Shown here: one piece after another, positions 968 through 16,376 of the stretch
Position numbering within the stretch: position 1 is the stretch's first letter
Layout: every line of letters starts with the position of its first letter
From: Rubrobacter taiwanensis
GTDB lineage: Bacteria > Actinomycetota > Rubrobacteria > Rubrobacterales > Rubrobacteraceae
DNA: 32,779 nt
Assembly: GCF_004337705.1 (NCBI RefSeq)
Contig: NZ_SKBU01000022.1
Span: 1 to 32,779, forward strand
Reading direction: 5' to 3'
Position numbers and translations under genes: made by a program
Notes under the pieces: generated by a model
What the model saw: the letters and a program-made list of their open reading frames with translations, nothing else
The model's database searches: none
What the model was told of the DNA's origin: nothing

Positions 968-1235
968 CAGACCCATGCAACAGATTGTATGGTATATATT
1001 TCCGCGAAGATTCGCGGTTTTCAAGGCTCAAGTGTTCGTTTTTGGATGCTAGCATGATCCTGCAGATGAAGCTACCTTCGAAAGCTGGGCTTCTGCACCG
1101 GCCGGCGGGGAGTTTGCGAAAGACATTTTGTCGCAGGTTTGCAGGTAAAATGAGCTGCTACCGGATAATGCTGCAAGCTTACTCGGAAGGATTGGCACAC
1201 CTTGCTACAGGGGTTTGCGAAAGAGGGGGGCTGAG
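968..1235 (-). promoter_or_regulatory. CRISPR leader / intergenic region
   Basis: This 268-nt stretch lies between the last repeat and the WYL gene. It has no convincing coding frame and is richer in A+T than its flanks near the array. It contains the putative array promoter on the minus strand, a perfect 16-bp palindrome at 1002-1017, and a 12-bp direct repeat GTTTGCGAAAGA at 1112-1123 and 1213-1224. A shorter GTTTGC copy lies at 1137-1142. A weak plus-strand -10 candidate, GATAAT at 1164-1169, could serve the WYL gene but has no good -35 partner. The leader role is inferred from repeat orientation. Confidence 0.7.
984..1024 (-). promoter_or_regulatory. Putative pre-crRNA promoter with palindromic spacer
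   Basis: Reading the minus strand, TTGAAA (1024-1019) is followed after 17 nt by AAATAT (1001-996), with overlapping TATATA (998-993) and a downstream TACAAT (989-984). The 17-nt spacer contains the palindrome CCGCGAAGATTCGCGG (1002-1017). A start here would lie 10-25 nt before the first repeat and fits array transcription. The exact -10 is uncertain. Confidence 0.5.
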
Positions 1236-2156
1236 GTGAGCAGGATGGGGGCTACACTGGGCACGCTCGCGGTGCTGAAGATCCTCTCGGAGGGGGCTGC
1301 ATCGAGAGAGAGGCTCTTGGCCCGGCTCGAAGAAGAGTTCGGCATCGGGCGGGACGAACGCACGCTCCGGCGTTACGTGAGCGCTCTGCGGGAAGCCGGG
1401 TTCGAGATCCGTAGCCATAGCGGAAAGCTGGAGCTTGTGAGCTCTCCCGTCCGGCTGCCGTTCGATGAGTACGAGGCCCTGGCCGCCCTCAGCCTGCTGG
1501 AGTCCGTAGCCGGGCAGGAGCCTGTGTATGGCGGTCATCTCGCTTCTGCAGCGGGCAAGCTGCGCCGCGCTCTGCCGGAGGGAGTTTTGAAGTTCGTGGA
1601 CCGGGGGCGGGTGGAGTTTGATCTCTCTCCGGCCAGCGATCCTCCTGAGGATCCCCACGTAATAGATACCCTCCGCCAGGCAGCTTACCGCAATCAGCGG
1701 ATAGAGATGCACTACTATAGCCTCTCCTCGGGCGAGTCGCGCTGGAGAGTAGTCGAGCCCGTGCGGGTCTATCACGCGCAGAGGGCGCACCGGCTCTACG
1801 CCTACGACCCCGAGTCGAACGAATACCGGGAGTTCCGGGTCAACCGCATCGGGGAGGTGAAGATGCTGCCGGATAAGTTCTCCCCCGAAGCCCACACCCG
1901 GCAGCTCAAGCCCGCCCGCGTCTGGCTCAACGAGAAGACCTTCGCCGCTTACGGCAAATACGTCATCCCCGACCCCCACGCCACGGTGAAACCTCAGGAC
2001 GACGGCACCGCGATCGTAGAGGGCTCCGTAGCAAACATCTTCTGGACCGTCCGGGATATCGCCGCTCTGGGACCCGGCGCCCGAGTCCTCGGCGGCCCGG
2101 AACTCAAGGAGGAGTTCCTGCAATTCCTCCGCCTCACATTGAATCAGTATTCATAA
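1236..2156 (+). CDS. WYL-domain transcriptional regulator
   Basis: A DNA-binding regulator that probably controls the adjacent array and cas genes. The N-terminal ~65 residues read as a winged helix with an ERTLRRYVSALREAGFEI recognition-helix region typical of DeoR/WYL repressors. Residues ~140-220 match a WYL ligand domain, including a VVEPVRVYHAQRAHRLYAYD segment where the Trp-Tyr-Leu triad is changed to Arg-Leu-Tyr. The remainder resembles the WCX extension. I chose the GTG at 1236 because AGAGGGGGG lies a few bases before it; an in-frame TTG at 1215 and an ATG at 1245 are alternatives. WYL proteins often accompany CRISPR loci and are thought to sense nucleic-acid-derived ligands. The ligand here is unknown. 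Confidence 0.85.
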   Translation: MSRMGATLGTLAVLKILSEGAASRERLLARLEEEFGIGRDERTLRRYVSALREAGFEIRSHSGKLELVSSPVRLPFDEYEALAALSLLESVAGQEPVYGGHLASAAGKLRRALPEGVLKFVDRGRVEFDLSPASDPPEDPHVIDTLRQAAYRNQRIEMHYYSLSSGESRWRVVEPVRVYHAQRAHRLYAYDPESNEYREFRVNRIGEVKMLPDKFSPEAHTRQLKPARVWLNEKTFAAYGKYVIPDPHATVKPQDDGTAIVEGSVANIFWTVRDIAALGPGARVLGGPELKEEFLQFLRLTLNQYS

Positions 2157-2268
2157 TCTCCGAAAAAATCAGAAAATCTATCGCTCCGGTCCTGTCGTGT
2201 CCGGTTTCTTCTGGAGAATAGACCGCAGATTACTAAAGGCTTATGCGTTTGGTTACGAGAATAGTAGG

Positions 2269-3270
2269 GTGACCGAGGTATTCGTAGAAGGTTTTGGGGT
2301 ATCGGTGGGGAAGAAGAGCGAGCGCCTGGTCGTGAAGAGGAGGGGGGAGGTGATCTTCGAGCGCCCCTTCTTCGACGTCGAGCGCGTCATCGTCTCGACC
2401 GAGGGTGCTACCATCTCTGCGGCCGCGATCCACGAGTGCTCCCGGCAAGGGGTGCCACTCGAGTTCCTCAGTTATTCCGGAGCTCCGTACGCGAGCGTCA
2501 TCTCTCCGAATCTCGGGGGCACGGTCAAGACGCGGCGGGCGCAGCTTCTGGCCTATGAGGATGCCCGCGGCGTGGAGCTTGGGAAGTCCTTCGCCACCGG
2601 AAAGCTCAGGAATGCGGCCAACAACCTCAAGTACTTCGCAAAGTACCGCAAGGCGAAAGACCGCCGCGTCTACGACTACCTCTACCGCCGGATAGACAGG
2701 ATCGAAGACCTCGTACGGCAGGTGAACGCAATAGAGGGGCGGTGTGCGGACGAGGTGCGTGGCACGCTGCTCAACGCCGAGGGGCGCGGTGCCGCCCTGT
2801 ACTGGGAGGGGGTGGCGCGGGTAGCGCCGGGGTTCGCCGGGCGCGAGGGGCGGGGAGCTAAGGATCTCGTAAACTCCCTGCTCAACTATGGGTACGGTAT
2901 CCTCTACCATCGCGTCCTCTCGGCGGTGACGCGGGCGGGGCTGGACCCGTTCGCCGGGTATGTCCACACCGACCGTCCCGGCAAGCCCTCGCTCGTCCTC
3001 GACCTCATAGAGGAGTTCCGCCAGCCGGTCGTGGACCGGGCCGTCTTCGGGATGCTCGGGACCGGGTTCAAGGTGGGGATGGACGGCGAGAAGCTCGACG
3101 AGCCGACCAGGAAGCTCGTCGCCGGGAAGGTGCGGGAGCGGCTTGCAACCCGGGTGAAGCACCGGGGCAAGAGGCACGCCCTGGAGAACGTCATCCACGT
3201 TCAGGCCCGCTCGGTAGCCAGCTTCGTGCGGGATGGAGTTCTGTATAAGCCGTTCGTGGGGAGCTGGTAG
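2269..3270 (+). CDS. cas1: CRISPR-associated integrase Cas1
   Basis: Metal-dependent integrase that, with Cas2, inserts new spacers at the leader end of the array. Catalytic residues are visible as Glu171 (NAEGRGAALYW), His233 (YVHTDRPGKPSL) and Glu248 (DLIEEFRQPVVD), with the typical helical C-terminal domain. I start at GTG 2269 so the protein begins with the normal first strand (TEVFVEGFGVSVG) and has the family length of 333 residues. An in-frame GTG at 2197 would add 24 residues without similarity to Cas1. The 112 nt between the WYL stop and this start are AT-richer than the surroundings, but I see no clear promoter. The cas2 TTG follows the stop directly, so the two are probably co-translated. 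Confidence 0.97.
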   Translation: MTEVFVEGFGVSVGKKSERLVVKRRGEVIFERPFFDVERVIVSTEGATISAAAIHECSRQGVPLEFLSYSGAPYASVISPNLGGTVKTRRAQLLAYEDARGVELGKSFATGKLRNAANNLKYFAKYRKAKDRRVYDYLYRRIDRIEDLVRQVNAIEGRCADEVRGTLLNAEGRGAALYWEGVARVAPGFAGREGRGAKDLVNSLLNYGYGILYHRVLSAVTRAGLDPFAGYVHTDRPGKPSLVLDLIEEFRQPVVDRAVFGMLGTGFKVGMDGEKLDEPTRKLVAGKVRERLATRVKHRGKRHALENVIHVQARSVASFVRDGVLYKPFVGSW

Positions 3271-3525
3271 TTGGGCTACGTGCTTCTCATCTACGACATA
3301 CCGGATGACCGGGTTCGCCATCGCGTCTCCGAGCGGTGCAAGGACTACGGCTTGAGTCGCATCCAGTACTCCGCGTTCGCCGGGGATCTGGACCGCAACC
3401 GCCGCGAGGAGCTGATGCTCAGGCTCAAAAAGACCCTCGGAAAGAAGGAGGGCGTAATCCGCCTGCAGCCGGTGTGTAGCCGCGACCTGACGCTCGCGAA
3501 GGAGATCGCCGTTGAGGGGGCATGA
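3271..3525 (+). CDS. cas2: CRISPR-associated protein Cas2
   Basis: Small ferredoxin-fold protein that forms the structural core of the Cas1-Cas2 integration complex. The first strand and conserved acidic residue are seen in LLIYDIPDDRVRHRV (Asp9). The 84-residue length is normal. The TTG start follows the cas1 stop with no gap, and GGGGAG in the end of cas1 lies 6-8 nt upstream as a ribosome-binding site. The 3' end overlaps cas4 by 14 nt, which implies coupled translation of the adaptation module. Confidence 0.95.
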   Translation: MGYVLLIYDIPDDRVRHRVSERCKDYGLSRIQYSAFAGDLDRNRREELMLRLKKTLGKKEGVIRLQPVCSRDLTLAKEIAVEGA

Positions 3526-4102
3526 TCTCACCGTCACCGACGTCCGCCAGCACGTCTACTGCCCGCGCATCCCGTACTACCGCTACAACATGCCGCTGGA
3601 GCGTCCGGTAACGGCCAAGATGGACCTCGGTAAAGAGGAGCACGAGTCCGCCGCGGCGAAAGAAGCCCGCCGCACCCTGAAAGCGTACGGGATAAAGAAG
3701 GGCGAGCGCCGGTTCGGGGTTAATCTCTACTCGGAGCACCTGCGGCTGCGCGGGAAGATCGACATGGTAATCTTCACCCCGCAAGAGGTCATCCCCGTAG
3801 AGTACAAGATGACCTCCGGCGTCGGGTTGCACCACAAGTGCCAGCTCGCAGCCTACGCCATGCTCGCCGAACACACCTGCTCGCGCACCGTAAGCCGCGC
3901 CTTCGCCTACCTCACCCCGGCCAAAAGGGCCGTCGAGATCCCCATAACCGCCGCCATGCGCGACTACGTGCGCAAAGTGCTCGAAGAGCTGCGCGCCTCG
4001 ATGGAGCGCGAGCAGCTCCCCGGGCCCACTCCTTACCGCAAACGCTGCACCGGTTGCGAGTACCGCCGGTTCTGCGGCGACGTGCTCACCGGAGGAAGCT
4101 GA
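3512..4102 (+). CDS. cas4: CRISPR-associated exonuclease Cas4
   Basis: RecB-like nuclease with an iron-sulfur cluster that trims prespacers and helps select the PAM. Nuclease motifs appear in order: RLRGKID (GxxD) near residue 75, PVEYK (ExK) near 92, and HKCQLAAYAML (QxxxY) near 105. Four cluster cysteines are present: one in VYCPR near residue 17 and three in CTGCEYRRFC near the C-terminus. AAGGAG lies 7 nt before the TTG start, which supports this start inside the end of cas2. At 196 residues it is of normal length. A second Cas4-family gene, csa1, follows after 3 nt. Confidence 0.95.
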   Translation: MRGHDLTVTDVRQHVYCPRIPYYRYNMPLERPVTAKMDLGKEEHESAAAKEARRTLKAYGIKKGERRFGVNLYSEHLRLRGKIDMVIFTPQEVIPVEYKMTSGVGLHHKCQLAAYAMLAEHTCSRTVSRAFAYLTPAKRAVEIPITAAMRDYVRKVLEELRASMEREQLPGPTPYRKRCTGCEYRRFCGDVLTGGS

Positions 4103-4105
4103 GCT

Positions 4106-4963
4106 ATGTTTATGCCTACCGCAGAGGAGAAAAAACGCCTCCTGCGGGGCACCATCCCGCGCGCCCGCAAGCTCGGCGTGGACGACACGCTGCGCGGCTG
4201 GAGTTGGTCCGCCCCGCCGCTCCTCTCTCCCTACGAGGTGCCGCTCGGGCTCTCCGAGGTCGCCAACGCCTACTGCGCTACGGGCCGCGACATCTACGCC
4301 CGGCGCGTCCTCGGAGCGGAGACGGAGCCCAACGAGAAGATGATCCTGGGCTCCGCGCTGCACTCGACGCTGCGGGAGTGGACCGTCCACGCCAAGCGGA
4401 AGCTCTACGAGTCCGGGGCGGAGGACATCGAGCGGGCGGTGCGGGAGATCCGGGCCTTCCCCGAGCCGGACCTCCCCGAAGCCCGCAGCCTCGTCGCCTA
4501 CGAAGCCGACGCCATCGAGTTCCGGCTGCGCGAGGCTATAAGCCAGTTCCCCCGCATCGGCACCGACGCGCTCGTAGCCCAGGTGCTGCCCGTCACCTTG
4601 GGCCAGATGCTCGACGGAGCCTTCCTCGGCCTCAGCCGCCGGCTCTCCACCGACCTGCTCAACCTCGGCGAGCCGGCCGTCCTCAACATAATCTTCAACG
4701 ACGAGAAGAGGAGCTTCCACCCGCTCACACTCGCCGGATACGCCCTCGTGCTCGAAGCCGTGTACGAGTTCCCGGTGGATGTGGGAGTCACGGTGTACGC
4801 CAGCTTCCGGAACGGCCGCCTCCAGATAGAGCGCGAGTTCGCCGTTTTGGGCGACGAGCTCAGGATGGAGTTCATAGAAGTGAGAGATGAGAAACAACGC
4901 ATGGTCGCCGACGAGCTAGACCCCGGCCCCTGTGAAGAATGCGAAGCGTGGTGCTCGAAGTGA
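4106..4963 (+). CDS. csa1: Cas4-like adaptation protein Csa1
   Basis: Second Cas4-family nuclease of the adaptation module, resembling the Csa1 (Cas4-2) proteins usually found with type I-A systems. GSALHSTLREW near residues 82-92 fits the N-terminal histidine motif of RecB-like nucleases. Cys57 (NAYCATGR) plus the C-terminal CEECEAWC could hold an iron-sulfur cluster. The ATG at 4106 follows GGAGGAAGCTGAGCT, a good ribosome-binding site. In Pyrococcus the two Cas4 proteins specify opposite ends of a prespacer; a similar split of labour here is inference. The last 72 nt of this gene have a diverged copy at 5724-5795. Csa1 is a firmer call than its exact role. Confidence 0.85.
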   Translation: MFMPTAEEKKRLLRGTIPRARKLGVDDTLRGWSWSAPPLLSPYEVPLGLSEVANAYCATGRDIYARRVLGAETEPNEKMILGSALHSTLREWTVHAKRKLYESGAEDIERAVREIRAFPEPDLPEARSLVAYEADAIEFRLREAISQFPRIGTDALVAQVLPVTLGQMLDGAFLGLSRRLSTDLLNLGEPAVLNIIFNDEKRSFHPLTLAGYALVLEAVYEFPVDVGVTVYASFRNGRLQIEREFAVLGDELRMEFIEVRDEKQRMVADELDPGPCEECEAWCSK

Positions 4964-4970
4964 ATGAGAA

Positions 4971-5025
4971 TATAATGACCACAAACGATATACGAAAGGC
5001 ATCAGCATGGCACGTTTTGTGGTCA
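4971..5025 (+). promoter_or_regulatory. vapBC promoter with inverted-repeat operator
   Basis: TATAAT at 4971-4976 lies just after the csa1 stop and is a consensus -10; no clear -35 is seen. A perfect 10-bp inverted repeat, TGACCACAAA (4976-4985) and TTTGTGGTCA (5016-5025), flanks the vapB ribosome-binding site and ATG. Arm centres are exactly 40 bp apart. This suits autoregulation by the ribbon-helix-helix antitoxin, or an mRNA hairpin enclosing the start codon. Confidence 0.6.
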
Positions 5026-5270
5026 CGATACCGGACGAGTTTCTCAAAGAGGTGGATGCTCGGGCGAAAGCCGAGCACCGGAGCCGGAGCGAGCTGGTTC
5101 GAGAGGCGCTTCGGAACTACCTGCGTTCGGGAGAACGTAAGGAGGACATTTCGAACAGGCCCGATTTTAAGAGGGCCGTCCGGTTTCAGGACGAGATGCG
5201 GCGTCGCCACGAGGGGTCGGGGTACAGCGGATCGGCGGTCGTGCGGGAGATGCGGGACAGGATCTATTGA
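5007..5270 (+). CDS. vapB: VapB-type ribbon-helix-helix antitoxin
   Basis: DNA-binding antitoxin of the toxin encoded next. Residues 1-45 form a ribbon-helix-helix (strand RFVVTIPDEFLKEVD, then RSRSELVREALRNYL). The C-terminal half (FKRAVRFQDEMRR onward) should bind and mask VapC. The 87-residue length is normal. AAAGG lies 7 nt before the ATG, and the stop overlaps the toxin's TTG start, so production is coupled. It probably represses its own promoter through the inverted repeat around its start. It is clearly related to the second antitoxin at 5840-6109, sharing the RPxxxRxxxFQDxMRRxxEG segment. Its position between adaptation and interference genes ties its expression to the cas operon. 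Confidence 0.85.
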   Translation: MARFVVTIPDEFLKEVDARAKAEHRSRSELVREALRNYLRSGERKEDISNRPDFKRAVRFQDEMRRRHEGSGYSGSAVVREMRDRIY

Positions 5271-5695
5271 GCTACCCCTTCCGGGCCGCCGTCCTCGACA
5301 CCTCCGTCGTGGTCAAGTGGTTCATCCACGAAGAGGATTCCGAGAGAGCCGCGAACCTGCGACACGCTCATGGTCGGGCCGAGCTACTACTCCACGCGCC
5401 GGATATATTGCTGATGGAGCTGGCGAACGCGCTGCGATATTCACCCCTGGTATCCGTAGAGGAAACATCGCAGGCCCTACTGCTATTCTCCGGCCTGGGG
5501 ATCACCATCGTCCCGTTCGATCTGAACGCCCTGATCTCCTCCGTCTCCCTCAGCCTGGAGCACGACCTCGCCGTCTACGACGCGTACTTCCTCGCCCTCG
5601 CTCGGGCGTTGGAGATGCCACTCGTAACCGCCGACCGGAGAATGCTCTCCCGCCTCACCGCCGAGGGCGGTGCTGTAGACCTCAAGAGCCTCTAA
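5267..5695 (+). CDS. vapC: VapC-type PIN-domain ribonuclease toxin
   Basis: PIN-fold RNase expected to cleave RNA when freed from its antitoxin. The four acidic metal ligands are in place: Asp11 (VLDTSVVVKWF), Glu51 (LLMELANAL), Asp105 (VYDAYFLALA) and Asp123 (TADRRML). It is complete at 142 residues, so it is likely active. Its TTG start overlaps the antitoxin stop (TTGA). After its stop, only a short remnant and the second antitoxin separate it from cas3. Its RNA target cannot be told from sequence. Toxins inside cas operons are often proposed to act as addiction modules or as a last-resort dormancy arm. Confidence 0.88.
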   Translation: MSYPFRAAVLDTSVVVKWFIHEEDSERAANLRHAHGRAELLLHAPDILLMELANALRYSPLVSVEETSQALLLFSGLGITIVPFDLNALISSVSLSLEHDLAVYDAYFLALARALEMPLVTADRRMLSRLTAEGGAVDLKSL

Positions 5696-5723
5696 CTCAA
5701 TATCTCATCTGGCGCCGTCTACA

Positions 5724-5795
5724 AAACAGCGCATGGTTGCCGACGAACTGGATCCTGGTCCCTGCGAAGGATGCGAGGAATGGTGCGCGAGGTGA
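5724..5795 (+). pseudogene. Remnant of a second csa1 gene (last 23 codons plus stop)
   Basis: Translated in frame, this stretch reads KQRMVADELDPGPCEGCEEW then CAR and a stop. It matches the csa1 C-terminus at 4892-4963 at 19 of 23 residues. I count 58 of 72 identical bases, and most differences are silent third-position changes. The similarity starts abruptly at 5724 and ends at the shared TGA. It therefore derives from a diverged csa1 allele under protein-level selection, not from a recent tandem copy. No start codon or upstream csa1 sequence remains. Confidence 0.85.
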
Positions 5796-5839
5796 TCAAG
5801 TCCTGTATATTGAAATATGGAAAGGGAGAGGAAGACAAA

Positions 5840-6109
5840 GTGACCTGGATGATTATTGAACCGTCTGGCGAACTGCTCCAAGAGCTGGACAGCCATATGC
5901 AAGGCAGCAGTAAGAATATCTCGGACCTCATCCGTGAAACATTAGAGAGCTACTTCCGCCAGCATCCGCTAATAAGACCGGGAGGAGAGATCTCCGGGCG
6001 TCCGGAAATTCGGCGTACGATCCAGTTTCAGGACGATATGCGGCGTCTGTTGGAAGGTAGCAGCTTCAGCACATCAGAGACTATTCGCAAGATCCGAGAT
6101 GGCGGATGA
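5840..6109 (+). CDS. Orphan VapB-type antitoxin next to cas3
   Basis: A second ribbon-helix-helix protein of about 89 residues, homologous to the VapB at 5007: both have RPxxxRxxxFQDxMRRxxEGSxxS and end in (R/K)(E/I)(M/R)RD. No PIN toxin follows it; its stop overlaps the cas3 ATG (ATGA), so it is coupled to cas3 instead. I start at GTG 5840, after an AGAGGA ribosome-binding site; ATG 5849 is possible, and the 23 upstream codons of the open frame are remnant sequence. A small palindrome, ATATT-GA-AATAT (5807-5818), lies just upstream. It could repress the interference operon or neutralise VapC in trans; both are inference. Confidence 0.75.
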   Translation: MTWMIIEPSGELLQELDSHMQGSSKNISDLIRETLESYFRQHPLIRPGGEISGRPEIRRTIQFQDDMRRLLEGSSFSTSETIRKIRDGG

Positions 6110-8841
6110 ACATGGAGTTCGTCGTTACTAATGAGCCCCCAAAGGGGCAAAAATGTGAGGAACTACCTGGGCGGCTAATTGAGATCTTCCGCGCGGGAGC
6201 AAGGAGCCAAAGCGCAGAACCTTTCTGGCATCAGGCTCAGGCATTCAGCCGTCTCCTGGATGATCAAGAGCTGGTGCTCGTTGCAGGAACAGCATCAGGA
6301 AAGACGTTGGCCGTTGGTACGCCTCTCTTCTATAAACTCCAGCGGGGTGAAATCCACAAAGTCCTCTTGATGTATCCGACACTGGCATTGCTTGAGGATC
6401 AGCGACGCGTCTTGCAGTTGTTGGCCGAAACAACCGATCTGACAGAAGAAATAGGCCAGTTGCGAGGGGGAATGTCGCGCAGTGCGCTTATACATAACCT
6501 TAACAAGCGGGTCCTGCTTGCCACGCCTGATGCTGTTTACTGGTTCTTCCGCAAAAATGTCAAGTACAACGCTTTGCTGGTGTATGGTTTGTGCCAGGTG
6601 GATGAATTCGTGTTGGACGAAGCGCATCTATTCAATGGTCTAATGCTGCGCAACGTCGAGCATCTATGGCAGCGGCTTAAGTTGCTGGCCGGGTGTTTAA
6701 ACAAGACGCCACGACTTCACATCCTTACCGCGACTCCGACTACTGGATTGCGAGAGTTGAGTGGAGCAGAAGATATACCGGGAAAATCCAAGTGCAATAG
6801 CGTAAGCGTAGAAATCCGACCGAGCGGGCGATTTGATCGCAGAGATCAGTTCACGAAAGCGATTAATGAGATGCTCGATTCTGGACAGCGCAAGGTGCTG
6901 GTCGTATGCAATTCGGCGCGCATGGCCCACCAGCTTTTTGAGAAGTATAGGGTAGCAGACATAAGTGCGATCGCTCTTGAACATCGTTTGAAGTTTGGCA
7001 AGGTGAAGCTGGACGACCTGATGAGGTGCTTAACAGAAGCAGGCGTTCAGAAGGAATCTACCGACGAGCTGAGTGTGCGGCTATCTGGCGAGGGAGATGT
7101 CGTCTTAGCGGACATACCCGATGGTACGGAGCTCAACCTGCCTTTGCAAGAAATAGTGGCACAGGCAACCGAGGCTCTGGAGAATCAGGGCTGGCTCGTC
7201 AAACGGGCATTGCGGGATCGAGCTCAATATCCAGGCGAGACGTGGGAGGCGCTGCTGAAAAATCGTCCCTTGCCCTGTCGCATCGTCGCAGCCGTGCGCC
7301 AACGTCTAGAGGCGGCAGTAAACCTCGATGAACAACAAGCCACCGTAGACGAGTGGCTCGCGAGTGTGCTGGAGAGATTGAGTACCATCTCCGACGACCA
7401 GATCTGCTGTAAGGCAAGGGATTTCGATTCTCTCACAAAGACTTTTGTCACGGCGGGCCTAGATAAGAGAGCAGCTTCGTTGCTAACGAAACGGCTAACG
7501 TTCGAGATGAAAGCAGATCCAGCCCAGCTTCCAAAGCAGAGTCTGAGCCACCGTCCCGTTTATCTACGGTGGCTGGATTGGGCTGTGAAAGATGACGAAA
7601 AGGAGAAGGTGCGCGAAGCGGTTAAGTCGGACTTGGCGTCGGGTGAACTCAACGCGGAACTTCGACACATAGGGTTATGGAGTAACACCGACGTACCCGT
7701 TATCGTCTATTCGGGCAGCATGGCCAAAGGGGCGCGTGAAGGCTTGATCGACGCTTTCTCCGACATGGAGAGAGCGGTCTTGATCTCTACCTCTGCGGTG
7801 GAGGTCGGAGTGGATTTTCACGCTGATGCCCTGATCACCGAAGAATGTGAAGGCAACTCGTTCCTCCAGCGGTTCGGACGTGTGGGACGACATGACAAAA
7901 GCAGCAAGGTTGTCGCTCTTGTAAGCGGAGACGCTTACGCAGCTCTTAGCGAACTTGACGAGGCAAATATCAGCCGCGAAAGATTCTCCGAGAAGATCAC
8001 CGACGTTTTTCCGCGTTATAACTATGCGTCAGCTTCGCAAATGCTTGATGCTGGCCACTACTTGATCAACGAACAATTGGGCCGCATCGGTGGAAGGCTG
8101 AATGGTGTGCCAGAATTGCAAGAAGCGAAACCTATGGCCGAGCGATTTCGCACAGCTGGTATACAGCTTAACTTCGGCCTGCGGAATACTATGCCACAGA
8201 TAACCTTGCGCGATGGTGTGGGCAGAGATCCCTTCTACCTGTTGCGTTATGTGGATGACGATAAGTTGCGTCCTGCTGATTCGCCATTTGAGGTGGCACG
8301 GGCGACAACGTGGTTTACTGGCTTGATCTTCCAGGGCGCGAGGTTCGATGTGATCGTGGATCTGGAACAGACGCTCAAGGCGAGCCAGCATGTGTTTTTG
8401 TCATCGAAAGATGGATTCGATATCTGGTCGCGGCCTGGTGCTGGCTTAGCGTATCTCCAGAGAATGAATGATCATTTCGGGCGGACGGGTGGATGGAGCA
8501 AGTGGCATCCGGGAAATTTGATGCTGCTGAACGGTGACGTTTACCTGTCCCGCATTGATCGTGATCATGAGATGCCGGTTCCTGAAGCTGTCTTCGACAG
8601 CGAACAGAATCCGCTATTCATACCCAATCAGACCTATCTGGTGCTGTGGGGATGGACAGATGCCGAGGAAACGCGCGAACTACTTAAAGACATTGTCGAC
8701 TGGGAGGAACTTTACTACGACTGGGATAGGCTGCAATTTGAGTGGGCAAAGGCTATGGTGATCCTGGAGAATACAGCTGGCGCCTGCTTCGCTGCGTACA
8801 GAGAGTTGGTGGAATATGTTGGTCGCCAAGTTCAAAGGTAA
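6106..8841 (+). CDS. cas3: Type I-D CRISPR helicase Cas3' (no HD domain)
   Basis: Superfamily 2 helicase that unwinds target DNA after Cascade binding. Walker A AGTASGKT is at residues 60-67, DEAH at 171-174, TATPT at about 208-212, and motif VI QRFGRVGRH near 588-596. A long insertion (about residues 300-540) separates the two RecA folds. There is no HD nuclease domain; that activity is encoded by the next gene, which starts 26 nt before this gene ends. The 911-residue length suits type I-D helicases. Base composition drops here: I count 32 G/C of 60 at 6361-6420, against 42 of 60 in cas1 at 2941-3000. This suggests the interference genes have a different origin from their flanks. Confidence 0.9.
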   Translation: MNMEFVVTNEPPKGQKCEELPGRLIEIFRAGARSQSAEPFWHQAQAFSRLLDDQELVLVAGTASGKTLAVGTPLFYKLQRGEIHKVLLMYPTLALLEDQRRVLQLLAETTDLTEEIGQLRGGMSRSALIHNLNKRVLLATPDAVYWFFRKNVKYNALLVYGLCQVDEFVLDEAHLFNGLMLRNVEHLWQRLKLLAGCLNKTPRLHILTATPTTGLRELSGAEDIPGKSKCNSVSVEIRPSGRFDRRDQFTKAINEMLDSGQRKVLVVCNSARMAHQLFEKYRVADISAIALEHRLKFGKVKLDDLMRCLTEAGVQKESTDELSVRLSGEGDVVLADIPDGTELNLPLQEIVAQATEALENQGWLVKRALRDRAQYPGETWEALLKNRPLPCRIVAAVRQRLEAAVNLDEQQATVDEWLASVLERLSTISDDQICCKARDFDSLTKTFVTAGLDKRAASLLTKRLTFEMKADPAQLPKQSLSHRPVYLRWLDWAVKDDEKEKVREAVKSDLASGELNAELRHIGLWSNTDVPVIVYSGSMAKGAREGLIDAFSDMERAVLISTSAVEVGVDFHADALITEECEGNSFLQRFGRVGRHDKSSKVVALVSGDAYAALSELDEANISRERFSEKITDVFPRYNYASASQMLDAGHYLINEQLGRIGGRLNGVPELQEAKPMAERFRTAGIQLNFGLRNTMPQITLRDGVGRDPFYLLRYVDDDKLRPADSPFEVARATTWFTGLIFQGARFDVIVDLEQTLKASQHVFLSSKDGFDIWSRPGAGLAYLQRMNDHFGRTGGWSKWHPGNLMLLNGDVYLSRIDRDHEMPVPEAVFDSEQNPLFIPNQTYLVLWGWTDAEETRELLKDIVDWEELYYDWDRLQFEWAKAMVILENTAGACFAAYRELVEYVGRQVQR

Positions 8842-9583
8842 CCTTGGCAAGTCATCACACGGTGGTGAGTCACTTTACGATCACACTATGGATTGTGTGA
8901 AGGTGGCCCACAAAGTCTTGACCGACGAGCGATTTGCGCCGGTCGACTATCTCAAACAAAAGCGTGACCAACTGCTGTTTGCGATGTTTATCCACGACGT
9001 CGGCAAGCTCGACGCGGACTTTCAAGCGATGCTGCGTGCCGCCCGCGCTGGCGAGCCGCTGCCACCCAAGCGTGTAAAGCACGAAGCGAGCACGTCGGAT
9101 TTTGAGCAGTTGGTCGTGGAGACCCAGGATGAGGTCAAGGAGCACCTGTGGGACGTACTCGGCTACAAGTTCACAGAAGAGATTAACCTCAACGACGCGT
9201 TGGCGTTCACCGTGAGCCATCATGGGATGTTCTACCTATCTTTCGAGGCGCGCAACGGGCAAGTGCTTAGACGCGTTCGGCGAGAGTGGACGGTCTTCAA
9301 CTACGGCGAGCAACGGCGCATCACTCTGGCGGACCTGTTGTTCGACTACCACCCACTTGGAGGGCTGGTCATCATCGCCGACCTACTTGGCTCTTTCTGC
9401 TACGAGCAACGTATCGCTGACGCCGACGAGATCATCGAGAGAGCCGGGTCTCTGCGCGAGCTGATCGAGACGCTGCTCCACGAGGGAGCAGCGGAAACGG
9501 TTGAGGAAAGCATCAACCAGTACGATCCGCGCACCTACGCGCTGCGAGATCTGCTCACTCTGCTGGCAGGAGGCTTGGCCTGA
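8816..9583 (+). CDS. Stand-alone HD nuclease (Cas3''-like)
   Basis: Metal-dependent HD-fold nuclease expected to degrade the target strand unwound by Cas3'. Ligands are visible as His23 (LYDHTMD), His60-Asp61 (FIHDVGKLD), His89 (KHEAST), His135-His136 (SHHGMF) and Asp189 (IIADLLGS). In well-studied type I-D systems the HD domain forms the N-terminus of Cas10d. Here it is a separate 255-residue protein, and the following Cas10d begins without any HD motif. The gene overlaps cas3 by 26 nt and its TGA overlaps the cas10d ATG, so stoichiometric coupled synthesis is likely. The enzyme class is secure; exact membership in the Cas3'' family is inferred from context. Confidence 0.85.
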   Translation: MLVAKFKGNLGKSSHGGESLYDHTMDCVKVAHKVLTDERFAPVDYLKQKRDQLLFAMFIHDVGKLDADFQAMLRAARAGEPLPPKRVKHEASTSDFEQLVVETQDEVKEHLWDVLGYKFTEEINLNDALAFTVSHHGMFYLSFEARNGQVLRRVRREWTVFNYGEQRRITLADLLFDYHPLGGLVIIADLLGSFCYEQRIADADEIIERAGSLRELIETLLHEGAAETVEESINQYDPRTYALRDLLTLLAGGLA

Positions 9584-12411
9584 TGGAAAACGTCATAGAT
9601 ATCGTTCGGCGGCAAGCCGAGGAGACGATCAGGAACCTGGGTGTAGAAGAGGTAGTCACGGCAGAGCAGGTCGCCGACAGCGTGCTGCGCCAGACCGCCT
9701 ATTGGGAGATGTCTATATCAGATGGAGAGAAGTTACTGTTCGTGCGCTTCTTCTCGCCTGTTGTCCAGCGCGAGGAGGTTTCCCTAGGAAACATCCTGTT
9801 CAACTCCTTCTTAGGCAAAGCCTTCACCCGCGCCGTTGTCGAGAACGATTCGAGCAAAGCGGAACTGGTGGCGAACGATCTGGAGAGCTACTACTTCCTG
9901 ATACGCACTACTTCCGACGTGGCGCAGTTAGCTGACACATTCCGCTCCGAAGTCGAACGTAGCTTGCCGGACCTGTTCTTCGGCGAGCAGGACAAAGCGA
10001 AAGGGATTTACGGCGATCTGAGCCGTATGTTCACATTTCGTAAGACCGACTTTGAGCCTTTCCCCGTTTATGCCGTTCCGCAATTCCTTGCTCCGCAGCT
10101 TGAGAAAGCGGTCCGCAAAGAGTTGAATAAGTTGTTGAACCCGAGTGTGTTCCTCAATCGAGTCAGAACAGCGCTCGCCACCATTACTTTCTTCTACGGA
10201 CGCACGAGTGGTGGTAGTGGAGATGTGCAAAGCCCTGCAAATTTTATTGACCGTCTTGTAAACGAAGAGGATTACGACGAGCTTCTTAAAGTCGACGAAG
10301 TGAAGAAGGCTTTTAACGTTGCTGAGGCCAAGAAAACCACCATCAAGAAAAGCATTGACGACGAAACGTACAGCGTAGAGCGGCTACTTGACCTGTTGTC
10401 CAAATTATCGCGAACTTTTCATGCCAGTATTGATAGTGGATCCACCAAGTGGCTCATGGGCTTCCTCTACAAGGACGAAAAGTTCGTAAGCTTGGAGCCG
10501 ACAGATTACCTCAGTGTACTGTTAGCGGACGTACAGCTTGGATACCAACCATTTGCGAGACCGTCTGCAGGAAACGTCGTACCGTGCCGCCTCTGCAATG
10601 TTTTGTACGCGTCTGTGGAAGAACGTTATGTCACAACAGGGTTGAACTCTTTTAAATTCGACAATCAGAGGGTTCGACGACAGGCAGAGAAGGCGTGCGC
10701 CAAGTGTGCACTGCATTCCTACTTAGCTCAAAAGCTATTGGGCACGGAAATGGTGTCCGCAGGGCGCAAGCTGCCGCAAGTTCCCAAGACCTACAATCTC
10801 ATCTTTCACTACGGCAAGCACGATGATGAGGATATCAACCACCTCACTCGCACCATCGACCTAGTTTGGGGCTTGGTGCAACAGCGTCGTGAGGCCGAAC
10901 AAATTCGCCGGGAAGCGAATGAACAGATCAAGACTTTAGAAGATAGGCTTGAACGAGAAGAGGATGAGCAGAAGAAGCAGGAGTTGGAGACCGAGCTCGC
11001 TGAAAAAACTGCAAAGTTAGAACAGGCGCAGGCTACCATCTCAAAGAGCGGGGATGGGATCTATGCAACCTGCCCGTGGCTTAAAGAGTCAGGCGCGTCT
11101 CCGGTACCCTGGGAAAATACCTCGCTAGATGCGCTCGCCAATATCCAACTGTCCGAGACGAAAGTCGAACGGCATGTACTAGGGTTGGGTCTGGATGGAT
11201 ACCGGATGATCCTTTTTATATTACCGCAAATACGTGCGCCGCGTAATGCGAAGGAACACGACTTTGCCCAGCGCCGTTTCTCCGACAGCCGCGTGACGGT
11301 CACGGCGCTGCTTTCGTTCTTGCGCAAGCTATGCGGATGCGATGGACCTTTCTACTACCAGTCACTCCCTACGCTCACGCCTGAAGGCTTTGACCCGAAA
11401 ACTTTCTACGTGCGGGATGAGCAGATTAGTATTCAGCAAGCGCAAAATGAGTATGAGGTCGTTACACAATTAGCGTGGAAGCTCGTCTGGCAACGCGGCA
11501 GCGATGGCTTTGTACGCAAGGTGATTCTTGCCGAGAAGCTGCTGGAAGACCCGCTCGGGACATTTGCTACCGTAATGCGCGACAGCGCAATCTTCGAGCA
11601 AACCGGGACCAGAGGACGGTATAAGCGGTTGCCACGTAGCTACAAACAGGAGTGGAAGGCCTGGGATCTGACCGAGTACGCAAAGTTTATCCAGCGGCTT
11701 TCGAAACTTCAGGAGGTGAATGGCATGGCGCTTAACGTCGATCGAAAAGAGTTGGATGAGTTCTGTACTAAGCTCTTTCGAGCGTTAGATAACCTGGGGC
11801 TGCTACCGCGCCGGTTGGATTGGAAGCGAAGCTCTTCTGGGAAGTTGCAGCGGGTGGCACCAACAGAGCTCGAGAAGTACCCTCGCTTATTGTTCGGTAG
11901 CATTCAACGCTATGGCGATGTAGAAGCAGGGTTCAGGGAATGGGAGAGTCGTGTGCTTCGCGATGTCAGATCCCCATCTGTCAGAGAAGCGCACTACCCT
12001 GATCTCGAGTCCTTGCGCCAGTGGATGGTGCAGCATAAAGATATATTCACCAAGAATAAGGCAAACATGCAGCATCTGCGCGCTAGCCTCTACGCGCGGG
12101 CTTTCCAGTATCTATACCCGCGTCGCGTGCTGGCGAACGTCTTCTGCGAAAAGCAGAAGGGTAGCCCCGATGCCATCGAGCCAGAGTTCTTGGCGGAGGC
12201 ACTGCCCAACTCTATCGAAGGGGATGTTCAAAAGTTACGTGAGGCTTATAGAGATGAGTGGGAGGAGATAGTCGGCGACACACGAGACAGTCTCGTTGCT
12301 AACGCTGCCTATTATCGTAGGGTGCTGCGTGGCGAAGAACCTATGGCTCCACCGGCAGAAGAGGTCGAAGAGGCGGAGGAAGAGGCTGAACTTGAGGAGG
12401 TGGTACGGTGA
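9583..12411 (+). CDS. cas10d: Type I-D large subunit Cas10d (Csc3)
   Basis: Large subunit of the type I-D Cascade. A four-cysteine zinc site is formed by CRLC near residues 333-336 and CAKC near 370-373, matching Cas10-family proteins. A charged coiled coil spans roughly 430-490, and the C-terminus ends in an acidic tail rich in Glu. I see no GGDD palm motif, so cyclic oligoadenylate synthesis is not expected. No HD motif occurs in the N-terminal 150 residues. The stop overlaps the csc2 start by 4 nt. G+C is low for the window: 26 of 60 at 10381-10440. The call rests on zinc finger, size and position between the HD nuclease and csc2; sequence divergence is high. Confidence 0.85.
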   Translation: MENVIDIVRRQAEETIRNLGVEEVVTAEQVADSVLRQTAYWEMSISDGEKLLFVRFFSPVVQREEVSLGNILFNSFLGKAFTRAVVENDSSKAELVANDLESYYFLIRTTSDVAQLADTFRSEVERSLPDLFFGEQDKAKGIYGDLSRMFTFRKTDFEPFPVYAVPQFLAPQLEKAVRKELNKLLNPSVFLNRVRTALATITFFYGRTSGGSGDVQSPANFIDRLVNEEDYDELLKVDEVKKAFNVAEAKKTTIKKSIDDETYSVERLLDLLSKLSRTFHASIDSGSTKWLMGFLYKDEKFVSLEPTDYLSVLLADVQLGYQPFARPSAGNVVPCRLCNVLYASVEERYVTTGLNSFKFDNQRVRRQAEKACAKCALHSYLAQKLLGTEMVSAGRKLPQVPKTYNLIFHYGKHDDEDINHLTRTIDLVWGLVQQRREAEQIRREANEQIKTLEDRLEREEDEQKKQELETELAEKTAKLEQAQATISKSGDGIYATCPWLKESGASPVPWENTSLDALANIQLSETKVERHVLGLGLDGYRMILFILPQIRAPRNAKEHDFAQRRFSDSRVTVTALLSFLRKLCGCDGPFYYQSLPTLTPEGFDPKTFYVRDEQISIQQAQNEYEVVTQLAWKLVWQRGSDGFVRKVILAEKLLEDPLGTFATVMRDSAIFEQTGTRGRYKRLPRSYKQEWKAWDLTEYAKFIQRLSKLQEVNGMALNVDRKELDEFCTKLFRALDNLGLLPRRLDWKRSSSGKLQRVAPTELEKYPRLLFGSIQRYGDVEAGFREWESRVLRDVRSPSVREAHYPDLESLRQWMVQHKDIFTKNKANMQHLRASLYARAFQYLYPRRVLANVFCEKQKGSPDAIEPEFLAEALPNSIEGDVQKLREAYRDEWEEIVGDTRDSLVANAAYYRRVLRGEEPMAPPAEEVEEAEEEAELEEVVR

Positions 12412-13415
12412 GCGGGATAGAAAAATTCAGTGAGGCGCTGGCGAGCGTGCAAACGTTGGCACCGCGTGTAGTGAATAAGAATAAAGTAGCGCAGGCGATC
12501 TACACGCGGCAGGTTGTTACAGTCGTAGGAGTAAAAACAGCTACAAGCCGTTTTCTGCCCGTTTCACACGCAGGTTACTCGAATGAGACCTACGTGGACA
12601 AGCTCGACCTGCTCGACAAGACGCGTGCAGAGTTCATCGGACGTAAGTTGAAAGGTGCTGAGCGGCGGGCACATATGACTCTCTTTCGTCAAATGACAGA
12701 GGCTGAAACAAACAATGGCTGGCGTGGCTTTTTCTCCGATAAGTTCGGCAGAGAGTGTGCCATTCCCGACGGGTTATGCATTGCTTGCTGGAACTGCTCG
12801 CTATTTGGTGGTTTACAGGCCGGTGGAGTAGCGACGTTCTCGCGTGTTCGATACTTCGATACTTTTTCGGTTGAAGACGGTGTCGAGTGCATACAGACTG
12901 ATGAAGCGCCGGAACAGATGGCTATCGGTAACACTGTTGGTGAAGACTTGAGTGTGGAGCGTGGCGAGGCATCTTTCCATCGCTACGAATACGTCAAGGC
13001 AGGCACGCGCTTCCCGTTCATTACCATCATCGAAAGCCCGACGCTGCTTGATGTGGCGGGTTATGTGGCAGCGGTCAAGCTGGCCGACCAGCACGGCTAC
13101 GGCAAATATTCGGCCAACCACGGTAAGTTCTCTACGGAGTTCCTTGCCGTGTCCACAGGCTATCCGCAGTTCTCCGTGCTGGACATGCTAACGTGGCTGG
13201 AAAACGGCGAGCAGGAAGAAACCGGGAATGGTAATCCCGGGAATGAGAGAGCCGAGGGTACAACGACGGAGAACAAGATAGCCGACAAGCTGAAGTTTGA
13301 GGCGGCTGTTGGTGAACCTGTGTCGCTGTTTGGTAGTGAAATCACCGAAATTCGGAAGGAGCTAGACAAAGAATTCAAATCCTACCTCAACGCGCTCAAC
13401 AACGCGGGCAAATGA
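12408..13415 (+). CDS. csc2: Type I-D Cas7-family backbone protein Csc2
   Basis: RAMP-fold subunit that polymerises along the crRNA to form the Cascade backbone. The early segment VVTVVGVKTATSRFLP and the glycine-rich FGGLQAGGVATFSRVRYFDTF fit the Csc2 fold. A cysteine cluster, CIACWNC near residues 124-130, is the expected zinc-binding site. There is a low-complexity Glu/Gly/Asn stretch near 265-285 before the last helices. The 335-residue length is typical. The GTG start overlaps the cas10d stop (GTGA) and the stop overlaps the next ATG (ATGA). Csc2 also contributes to PAM and target-strand contacts in studied type I-D complexes. Confidence 0.92.
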   Translation: MSGIEKFSEALASVQTLAPRVVNKNKVAQAIYTRQVVTVVGVKTATSRFLPVSHAGYSNETYVDKLDLLDKTRAEFIGRKLKGAERRAHMTLFRQMTEAETNNGWRGFFSDKFGRECAIPDGLCIACWNCSLFGGLQAGGVATFSRVRYFDTFSVEDGVECIQTDEAPEQMAIGNTVGEDLSVERGEASFHRYEYVKAGTRFPFITIIESPTLLDVAGYVAAVKLADQHGYGKYSANHGKFSTEFLAVSTGYPQFSVLDMLTWLENGEQEETGNGNPGNERAEGTTTENKIADKLKFEAAVGEPVSLFGSEITEIRKELDKEFKSYLNALNNAGK

Positions 13416-14704
13416 GACGAGAGAACGTGCTCTATGCGCGAGCCTTGTTGCTGCGGAACTGCGGGCGGTTCACGCACATCAGCTCCGACTTTGGCTCGCA
13501 ATACCGCACACATGCCTTTGCCAGCAGCGAGGCGCTATATGCCAGCCTTACGCGAGGAGCCACATGGCGTCACGCGAACAGGTTCGTGGATTTAAAAGAG
13601 GACGCCAAAAAGTCCGCGAACGAAGATTACTTCTTCTGCGACTACGATGTGAAGAAAAAACCGGTTTGGTTCACACCAGGTGTCTTCGTAGACGAAGAAC
13701 TTCGTTTGTTGGCAAAGCAGCGCGGCGTGGTGGACAGAAACGATTTTAACGTTGTAGACGAAGGCTACCCGGGCACAGGGGGAAAGCGAGTAGATGGCAA
13801 AAAGCGCCAGTTCTTTGCTCCCACTTATGGAAATATCGAGAGCATTTTGCCCGATCACCAGCTACTCACATGTGCCTTGTCGCCGCGAAAGAGCGAGCTG
13901 GAAGGGTTCGCGCATGGACAGACGTTTCTAATGGGCAAAAAGCGGACAATGTTCCAACTCAGAGGCGTTTCTGAGGTTGCAGGGTTGGTCGAAACAGAAG
14001 GCGATGCGCCTATCGAAGAGTGCCAACCTGTACAAGTCAGGATGGACGAAGTCGGCAACTTCCGCGAGTACGAGATTCTTGCCGGAACCGCACGCTATCT
14101 GCTGGTGCGAGGCCGCACCTCGGAAGCATCCCTGGCGGCATCGTTTACTAACCCTGATAAGACATTGGAACTAAGACGCGTTTTGCCCGCGTTCTGGGTG
14201 GAACGAGTATCACAAATTCTCTCTGAGCCAAGAGAGGCAGCTAATCAGAACAGTGTGCTGGCCGAGGTTGTCTCAGAGCTAAAGATGGGACTGGGAGACG
14301 ACCTGATAGCCGTCGTCTTGTTTGGCTCTCGCGCTCGCGGGGAGGCGTGGGAAGGGAGCGATTGGGACCTCCTGGTGGTTGCCCGCAATTTGCCCGAGAG
14401 GACCTTGCAGCGCATCGTCTTGCTCAAAAAGATGCTTCCTTCCGCCTGGCGTGGGGAGGTGAGCTTGTTGGCAAAGACACCGGAGGAGTTTACCGCCGGT
14501 CTGCCGGAGCTCTACCTGGACATTGCCGTGGATGGTGTGATCCTTTACGACACCGGCGAGTACATGGCGAGAAGGCTACAGGCTTTGAGAGATTTGATCC
14601 GGCGCAAGGGGCTGCGCCGTGAAAGGGAAGGACAAGATCTGATCTGGCACTGGCAGGAACCGCCTGGAACTGAGTGGTCACTGGAGTGGGAGGAGGGCTC
14701 ATAG
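13412..14704 (+). CDS. csc1: Csc1 (Cas5) fused to a minimal nucleotidyltransferase
   Basis: Residues 1 to about 270 are Csc1, the Cas5-family subunit that caps the 5' handle of the crRNA; this portion alone has the normal Csc1 length. After a short linker, residues ~285-400 form an MNT domain with FGSRARG (near 303-309) and SDWDLLV (near 315-321), the nucleotide-binding loop and paired catalytic aspartates of the polymerase-beta fold. A Glu in WRGEVSLLA may be the third carboxylate. MNT proteins normally act as antitoxins that modify HEPN toxins, and a HEPN gene follows, overlapping by 31 nt. The reading frame is continuous through the junction. An internal ATG near 14285 could also give free MNT, although no ribosome-binding site is obvious. 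Confidence 0.85.
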   Translation: MRRENVLYARALLLRNCGRFTHISSDFGSQYRTHAFASSEALYASLTRGATWRHANRFVDLKEDAKKSANEDYFFCDYDVKKKPVWFTPGVFVDEELRLLAKQRGVVDRNDFNVVDEGYPGTGGKRVDGKKRQFFAPTYGNIESILPDHQLLTCALSPRKSELEGFAHGQTFLMGKKRTMFQLRGVSEVAGLVETEGDAPIEECQPVQVRMDEVGNFREYEILAGTARYLLVRGRTSEASLAASFTNPDKTLELRRVLPAFWVERVSQILSEPREAANQNSVLAEVVSELKMGLGDDLIAVVLFGSRARGEAWEGSDWDLLVVARNLPERTLQRIVLLKKMLPSAWRGEVSLLAKTPEEFTAGLPELYLDIAVDGVILYDTGEYMARRLQALRDLIRRKGLRREREGQDLIWHWQEPPGTEWSLEWEEGS

Positions 14705-15132
14705 CCGGCAGCGAACAGGCAGCTTACCGGCTCAAGCTGGCCCGCGGTTTTCTCGAAGAGGCACGGCAGGATGCCAACTTGAGTCGCTGGCGGTCCGCTG
14801 TGGATAGTGCTCAACTGGCGGTCGAAAACGCGGCCAAAGCCGTGCTCACGATGGCCGGACGGATCGGCCGCACCCACAACCCGGCTACTCAGGTACGGCG
14901 GTTGATCGAAGAAGGCCGGTTTGATGCTGGCTTCTCGGAGAGATTGGAACGTCTGGCAGAGCTAGCTGAGCTTTTGGGTCCGGACATCCACGTCCAGACG
15001 GACTACGGCGACGAAGTGGGAGGGCGCACGCCGTGGGAACTCTTTGATGAGTCCGATGCTCGTGAGGCGCTCGCCATCTCTGAGGAAGCCGTGGGCCTTG
15101 CTGAGCAGTTGCTTCGGGAAGTTTCGCCATGA
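14674..15132 (+). CDS. HEPN-domain protein, partner of the MNT domain
   Basis: All-helical HEPN protein of about 150 residues. The core SAVDSAQLAVENAAKAVL is characteristic, and R63-IGRT-H68 gives an Rx4H motif that could be an RNase site. HepT toxins carry a tyrosine two residues after this His that MNT enzymes adenylylate; here the sequence is H-N-P, so that tyrosine is missing. The start is uncertain: GTG 14674 and GTG 14686 both lie within the end of csc1, and GGAGGAGGG downstream is too late for either. The stop overlaps the next gene's ATG (ATGA). It may be a toxin held by the Csc1-fused MNT. Alternatively it may be a non-catalytic HEPN that binds the MNT or its substrate. Confidence 0.8.
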   Translation: MVTGVGGGLIAGSEQAAYRLKLARGFLEEARQDANLSRWRSAVDSAQLAVENAAKAVLTMAGRIGRTHNPATQVRRLIEEGRFDAGFSERLERLAELAELLGPDIHVQTDYGDEVGGRTPWELFDESDAREALAISEEAVGLAEQLLREVSP

Positions 15133-16376
15133 ATGGCGAGCCCTGGAATTTCGCCAGAGCCATCATCCTGCTCGCTTCGCGGCCGGAGACGGTGGAGATC
15201 GCGGTGGAGAAGCTGCGGCCGGAGAGGGTGGGGATCATCTCCTCCCAGGAGGTTCTGGAGGCTGTCGTGCTGAAGTGCGCACAGTTGAAGGGATCGGGCG
15301 TGAAGTTTACCTACCATCTGGTGGACTCGCCGATGGAGATCTCGGACGCCTTCGACCGCTTCGAGCGCCTGCTCTCGGAGCTGGAGGGCGAGGGGTATGG
15401 GCGGGAGGAGATCCTGCTCGACGCCACCGGCGGCACGACCCCAATGCGCCTCGGCGCGGCGCTGGCGGCGATGACGCGCGGGATCTCGATGGTGCACCAG
15501 CGGGTGCCGCAGCGGTACATCGAGGGCAACTGGGTGCGCGACGAGTCCCAAGAGGTCGAGGTCGTCCCGATGGAGAACCCGCTGGAGGCGACGGGCCTTC
15601 TGCGCGAGGGGCAGGCGGTCGAACTGTTTAACCGGCGGGACTACGCGGCTGCGGCGCTGGTCTTCGGGGATATCGTAGGGAAGGTGAGCGGTCTGGGACG
15701 GCGCACGTACTACCGGGGCCTGTTGCTCCTCTCGGAGGGGTATGCCTCTTGGGACGTGGCGGACTACGCTGTTGCCCTGGAGAGGCTGCGGGCGGCGCGG
15801 GAGGAGCTTGGGGCAGGGTTCTCCGACCCGGAGCTGGCCGACAGAGCCGGGGTGCTGGTGGACAGGATCTCGGCGCACCTGCCCTTCCTGGGGAAGGTGC
15901 GGGGGAGGCTCTCGGTAGAGAATGTGGCAGACATGCTGGAGAACGCCCGGAGGCGCATAGTGGACCAGGGGCGCTACGACGACGGGGTGGCGCGCCTCTA
16001 CCGCTGCGTCGAGATGTGGCATCAGTGGCGGCTGCTGCAGCACTACGGGATCTCCGCGGGCGAGGTGGACTGGGCGAAGGTGGATGAGGGAGTCCGGGAG
16101 CGGTTCCTGCAGGAGCAGCATCTGGAGGAGCTGCCGGGGGAGATCGGCCTCAGACAGGCCCGGCTGCTGGACCGGCTCTTGAGGGGTGAAGAGCCGGAGG
16201 AGGAGAGCACGCTCCGCGACCTCTTGCAGAAGCGCAACCGCTCCATTCTGGCGCACGGGCTGGAGCCCATAGGAGGGGAGTCCGCCCGCCGCTTCCTGGA
16301 GTACGTGGATGCAATGGTGGAGGTGCCCGGGGAGGTCCGGGCCGGGGCGGAGCACGCCCGGCTGAGGAGGCTCTAG
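15129..16376 (+). CDS. CARF-HEPN ribonuclease, TIGR02710-like
   Basis: Predicted ligand-activated RNase. The N-terminal ~160 residues form a CARF domain with the signature D98-ATGGTTPM-106, the site that binds cyclic oligoadenylate in Csm6/Csx1-type proteins. The C-terminal HEPN domain carries RNRSILAHG near residues 367-375, the Rx4-6H catalytic motif. Such effectors normally work with type III systems whose Cas10 makes the ligand; no GGDD is visible in the Cas10d here, so the activator must come from elsewhere or differ. G+C returns to the high level of the chromosome (41 of 60 at 15181-15240), which suggests this gene and cas6 have a different history from cas3-csc1. The gene abuts cas6 with no gap. 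Confidence 0.85.
   Translation: MNGEPWNFARAIILLASRPETVEIAVEKLRPERVGIISSQEVLEAVVLKCAQLKGSGVKFTYHLVDSPMEISDAFDRFERLLSELEGEGYGREEILLDATGGTTPMRLGAALAAMTRGISMVHQRVPQRYIEGNWVRDESQEVEVVPMENPLEATGLLREGQAVELFNRRDYAAAALVFGDIVGKVSGLGRRTYYRGLLLLSEGYASWDVADYAVALERLRAAREELGAGFSDPELADRAGVLVDRISAHLPFLGKVRGRLSVENVADMLENARRRIVDQGRYDDGVARLYRCVEMWHQWRLLQHYGISAGEVDWAKVDEGVRERFLQEQHLEELPGEIGLRQARLLDRLLRGEEPEEESTLRDLLQKRNRSILAHGLEPIGGESARRFLEYVDAMVEVPGEVRAGAEHARLRRL

Follow-up and report, generated by a model that had tools for sequence, protein, structure and literature searches.

A csa1 remnant between the adaptation and effector genes of a Rubrobacter taiwanensis CRISPR locus: a probable scar of effector cassette exchange

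A stretch of 72 nucleotides in a CRISPR-cas locus of Rubrobacter taiwanensis encodes the C-terminal end of a second Csa1 and is probably the scar of an incoming effector cassette that was joined behind the resident vapC gene. The finding is a new, well-marked example of the known exchange of CRISPR modules, in which a seam this readable is seldom caught.

Organization of the locus

The window, i.e., the whole stretch of DNA that was analyzed (32,779 nucleotides), is one whole contig of a 3.0 Mb genome in 57 contigs. The genes of the locus are arranged in the order CRISPR array, WYL, cas1, cas2, cas4, csa1, vapB1, vapC, the fragment, vapB2, cas3' and HD, followed by the large subunit, csc2, csc1 (one ORF with an MNT domain), a HEPN-like gene, CARF and cas6. 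The features, all on the plus strand, are the following.

1215..2156, +, WYL-domain regulator (PF13280; 52-64% in relatives), left end of the conserved frame
2197..4102, +, adaptation genes cas1, cas2 and cas4 (NCBIfam/Pfam; 77-89% at the amino acid level in relatives)
4106..4963, +, intact csa1 (Cas4/Csa1; TIGR01896, 186.9 bits with a cut-off of 103; PF06023)
5007..5270, +, vapB1, ribbon-helix-helix antitoxin (PF01402; 79-83% to vapB of R. radiotolerans, L002 and G022)
5267..5695, +, vapC, PIN-domain toxin (PF01850; 64-84% in relatives)
5696..5723, +, probable joint between the resident and incoming blocks, without significant csa1 similarity
5724..5795, +, second csa1 allele, last 23 codons and stop, probable scar (alignment, search, shuffles, tail comparisons)
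5840..6109, +, vapB2, antitoxin-like, without toxin partner, overlapping the start of cas3'
6106..14180, +, low-GC effector cassette with cas3', HD cas3'', large subunit, csc2 and csc1
14181..15132, +, pair of MNT, which shares one ORF with csc1, and a HEPN-like gene, at the cassette's right border
15129..17357, +, CARF (TIGR02710) and cas6 (70-82% at the amino acid level in relatives), right part of the conserved frame

The neighbors are those listed in the earlier note, namely csa1, an RHH antitoxin, a PIN toxin and a second antitoxin overlapping cas3'. In the vapBC pair (5007-5695), the RHH antitoxin gene overlaps the PIN toxin gene (PF01402, PF01850). The second antitoxin-like gene, vapB2 (5840-6109), has no toxin gene of its own and is directly followed by cas3'; its product is 35% identical to vapB1 and 42% to the counterpart in a genome of another genus (G016), and a Pfam search with it yielded no match. 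Among the effector genes, csc2 is named by TIGR03157, cas3' and HD by Cas3 families, csc1 by similarity to G016 and to another relative, G022, and the large subunit by its location and its resemblance to that of G016 alone; cas6 owes its name to its similarity to the cas6 annotated in R. radiotolerans. The MNT domain scores 32.9 bits with the MntA model, below the cut-off of 60, and the adjacent gene, which has no family match, is termed HEPN-like from its position beside MNT and its sequence.

In the window, csc1 and the MNT-type nucleotidyltransferase form a single open frame of 430 amino acids (13412-14704). In G022, csc1 ends before CARF, and the MNT-HEPN pair is located behind CARF, unfused to csc1. 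The fusion perhaps represents the right seam of the cassette. Before vapB1, the sequence TATAATGACCACAAACGATATACGAAAGG (4971-5000) forms part of an inverted repeat and shows hardly any change in R. radiotolerans, G022 and L002, a pattern suggesting that this region is likely the promoter and operator of vapBC.

The fragment is the end of a separate csa1 allele

The fragment aligns without gaps with the end of csa1 (4892-4963), with 58 of 72 nucleotides and 19 of 23 amino acids identical, and its in-frame translation is KQRMVADELDPGPCEGCEEWCAR, followed by the stop. It is homologous to the csa1 C-terminus (Cas4/Csa1, TIGR01896/PF06023), is read in the same frame, and comprises only the last 23 of the 285 csa1 codons, i.e., an incomplete gene. 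A protein search of the source genome detects the fragment at E = 1.2e-7 and no third copy of the csa1 tail. A comparison of the vapC-vapB2 gap with csa1 tails of other genomes yields a score of 102, with a maximum of 40.5 among 300 dinucleotide shuffles. Because of this E value and the distance of the score from the shuffle maximum, the likeness to csa1 is more than chance. An older csa1 remnant at 5705-5723, to which the similarity would continue upstream, was considered and rejected: the similarity upstream of 5724 lacks significance, since 28% of the 28-mers drawn at random from the window are equally good.

Nine of the 13 altered codons are synonymous, and the 14 altered bases fall on codon positions 1, 2 and 3 in numbers of 1, 3 and 10, respectively (binomial P = 0.004 versus an even spread). 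For comparison, csa1 tails were taken from six Rubrobacteraceae loci. The fragment differs from the csa1 tail of the window at 14 of 69 nucleotides, and the latter from the tails of L002, G026 and R. radiotolerans at 13, 14 and 13, respectively. Tails from different genera mostly differ at 11-18 of 69 positions (3-8 for close pairs), and csa1 tails from outside Rubrobacteraceae match at only 31-41 of 69. Given this distance on the scale of genera and the poor match outside the family, the source was a separate Rubrobacteraceae csa1. At the 14 differing sites, the majority base of the family is found 8 times in the fragment and 6 times in the csa1 of the window, so that neither tail simply descends from the other. 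The shortness of the fragment precludes a tree. The private changes of the fragment comprise four synonymous codons and one non-synonymous codon, and about 20% of random single changes in it would be synonymous under neutrality; therefore, the tail was selected as a protein until recently. Taken together, the tail comparisons identify the fragment as the product of a separate Rubrobacteraceae-type csa1 that, judging by its sequence, was functional until recently. Realignment thus reproduces the identities reported in the earlier note as well as its statement that the changes are mostly silent, and its claim that the two alleles diverged under selection before they were joined stands, on the third-position bias and the synonymous private changes.

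Direction of the exchange

The same locus is found, among other relatives, in Rubrobacter radiotolerans and in a MAG named Rubrobacteraceae. A cassette swap can be observed directly in two genomes of one genus, G026 and G027. Their identity is 95.4% from cas4 up to a point 4 nt short of the csa1 stop, is lost altogether for the next 7.3 kb, and resumes at the CARF border with 97.2%; the left break thus lies within the final csa1 codons. This is module exchange, with a conserved frame and unrelated effector genes between its parts; neither genome has a second tail behind csa1.

In the window, GC3 is 0.88 in csa1 and 0.73-0.80 in vapB1-vapC (0.80 in vapC), drops to 0.61 in the fragment (stop codon excluded), 0.59 in vapB2, 0.58 in cas3', 0.61 in the large subunit, 0.60 in csc2 and 0.61 in csc1 (0.72 in the small HD gene), and rises to 0.89 in CARF and 0.91 in cas6. 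Effector GC3 is lower than frame GC3 also in the loci of R. radiotolerans and G016, so that composition alone is no proof of recent entry. At the DNA level, the window and R. radiotolerans are 76% identical in the left frame and 75% in CARF-cas6, with no DNA match in the effector genes; the respective values for G026 are 82% and 80%, and the effector genes of the window are unrelated to those of G026 and R. radiotolerans or barely recognizable. Among members of the family, the left and right frame genes mostly show 70-89% protein identity, while the effector genes belong to three or more unrelated sets. In composition and divergence, the block from the fragment to csc1 stands apart from its surroundings; therefore, the simplest direction is that this block came in. 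Thus, the fragment probably belongs with the low-GC effector cassette, and the cassette is probably the incoming part, a reversal of the direction proposed before. Of the earlier account, the origin of the tail from a second functional csa1 allele is supported, and recombination between two related loci remains the best explanation; the proposal that csa1-vapB-vapC was brought in is not retained, given that composition and family comparison make that block resident. For an origin of the window locus itself by such an exchange speak the GC3 step and the foreign tail; searches of the order and the phylum yielded no donor or sister locus for it.

It is unlikely that, in the opposite direction, the csa1-vapB-vapC block was the incoming part and recombined into the resident csa1, leaving the resident tail next to the antitoxin and effector genes of the original locus. 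The same final structure is expected in that case, and vapB and vapC, which occur in loci whose cassettes differ, may travel together with csa1, but the left block matches CARF-cas6 in composition and divergence, the odd stretch being the one from the fragment to csc1, and the clean swap between G026 and G027 exchanged effector genes, not the left block. A tandem duplication of csa1 tail-vapB-vapC within one locus, after which the copies diverged and the second vapC was lost, would account for the repetition of tail and antitoxin in the same order, and the order in G016 is similar. We regard it as very improbable because of the third-position bias: a dead tail should not gather mostly synonymous changes. 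The divergence is also unequal, the tails being 81% identical at the nucleotide level, with protein constraint, versus 35% at the amino acid level for the antitoxins, and there is a GC3 step at the tail.

The preferred explanation, an incoming cassette joined behind vapC, can be outlined as follows. The loci of this family share a conserved frame, whose left part is WYL-cas1-cas2-cas4-csa1, often accompanied by vapBC, and whose right part is CARF-cas6; the effector genes enclosed by these parts are exchanged as a cassette, as seen in G026 and G027. In the window, a donor cassette csa1'-vapB2-cas3'-HD-large subunit-csc2-csc1 would have replaced the resident effector genes. Its left end would lie inside the donor csa1, so that the csa1' tail and vapB2 were carried along and joined behind the resident vapC. 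The incoming piece would thus start in a csa1 tail but be joined behind vapC, leaving both tails visible. The 72-nt stretch itself would be a non-functional scar, the csa1 end of another Rubrobacteraceae-type CRISPR locus; it has no start region of its own and presumably encodes no working protein. An assembly artifact was considered and rejected, given that the cassette and the frame genes of one type on either side of it lie in one contig, and that the same order is found independently in G016.

Traces of the tail in relatives

Of the order's 39 genomes, G016 alone has the large subunit in common with the window. In this genome, whose contig begins within vapC, the vapC part present (84% identical to the window vapC at the amino acid level), a csa1 tail, a vapB2-like gene and cas3' follow one another in the same order as in the window, and the tail is decayed, with a 9-nt deletion and a TAG stop. 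This decay suggests that the window tail will erode, too. The order of vapC and csa1 tail common to both genomes requires that they share an older joint or that the event was repeated, and the joint behind vapC may be older than the last exchange. In G022, the adaptation genes have been lost here and a damaged csa1 tail precedes an intact vapBC; this tail may be a leftover of csa1 deletion. The csc2-csc1 remains of G022 are about 78% identical to the window at the nucleotide level, as close as its frame genes, so that the cassette could be old in the family. In the vapC-cas3' gap of R. radiotolerans, the csa1-tail score is reached by 1 of 300 shuffles, several loci having been tried, and the gap may hold a more decayed csa1 tail. 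An alignment of L002 to csa1 tails reveals no tail between vapC and the effector genes.

The earlier note had held that conservation as a functional element would speak against a leftover. The deletion and stop in G016 and the absence of the tail from the csa1-effector gap of other relatives imply that the fragment is not such an element, and suggest that it is better read as a decaying scar. That the tail is kept as working DNA, either a promoter or leader of vapB2-cas3' or a 20-aa microprotein from an internal ATG, is extremely improbable: its 23 codons are intact and G016 and G022 also keep a csa1 tail before an antitoxin gene, but both of those tails are damaged, L002 lacks one, and no promoter match was obtained in 4850-6150.

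The G022 locus (L038, 11406-15172) is wrecked: csa1 is reduced to its tail and csc2 to its 3' part, CARF contains an inverted piece, and vapC is followed by an MNT/HEPN fragment.

Search for a donor

A relative with csa1 directly before the 5840-6109 antitoxin had been predicted. Such an arrangement was detected neither by a csa1 search in the 39 genomes of the order, genome contigs and viral contigs nor by a vapB2 search in the order. The predicted arrangement has thus not been encountered, which does not refute it: intact csa1 is present in only 5 of the 39 genomes, the source genome included, and because csa1 is so sparse the failure is weak evidence against the prediction. In 396 genomes of the phylum, matches to the Csa1 family (PF06023) outside Rubrobacteraceae have quite different tails, and outside the family a csc2 search of the phylum, plasmids and viral contigs yielded nothing of use. 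One match of the Csa1 model in a different family of the phylum (L057, G242:C57:16444-16716) is confined to the C-terminal third and lies in an open frame of 104 amino acids.

Relation to known systems

Exchange of CRISPR adaptation and interference modules has been reviewed for Sulfolobales (PMC4390879), and a bacterial type I-E case is cited in that review; such exchange has been inferred largely from disagreeing trees (PMC4390879). As in those cases, the adaptation and effector genes described here have separate histories and are swapped as blocks. Unlike in those cases, the seam in the window is visible as a leftover csa1 tail from another locus, and the breaks in G026 and G027 can be placed, on the left within the final codons of csa1 and on the right at the border of CARF. 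Pairs of vapBC genes interspersed in cas gene cassettes have also been described (PMC4390879). The window likewise has a VapBC-type pair between cas genes, but this pair is located at the border of the adaptation and effector genes, beside a second antitoxin gene without a toxin. The effector genes resemble type I-D in that csc2 exceeds the curated cut-off and cas3' and HD cas3'' are separate. They differ in that Csc2 (Cas7d) just passes (TIGR03157, 40.1 bits with a cut-off of 38) and the large subunit (9583-12411) has no match in an NCBIfam search for Cas10d, which makes this a divergent I-D-like effector set. In the collection of papers searched, none joins Rubrobacter, CRISPR and type I-D.

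The fragment alone is a minor evolutionary scar. The seams in Rubrobacteraceae, however, are readable base by base, as a clean swap in one genus and as csa1 tails in others, and let one ask where crossovers fall and whether border toxin-antitoxin genes favor them. A doubtful but conceivable generalization is that exchange recurs at the csa1-effector border in this family and that the toxin-antitoxin genes lining this site (vapBC and CreTA-like units, with MNT-HEPN on the other side) mark and stabilize new cassettes, these guard genes being swapped along and csa1 tails left behind.

A CreTA-like unit is located behind csa1 in G027 (L016, 7110-7290) and in the same place in G015 (L014). It contains a TATAAT and two degenerate CRISPR repeats, of which the second is like G015's own repeat at its 3' end (22 of 24 by eye count); the pseudo-spacer matches a site about 70 nt further on at 22 of 35 positions, a value reached by 3 of 300 shuffles. 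In L002, degenerate CRISPR repeats immediately precede the vapB promoter region and recur after vapC (2300-2400 and 3140-3330). The second pseudo-spacer agrees at 20 of 34 positions with a promoter-like site ahead of a small ORF, a value that 15 of 300 shuffles reach.
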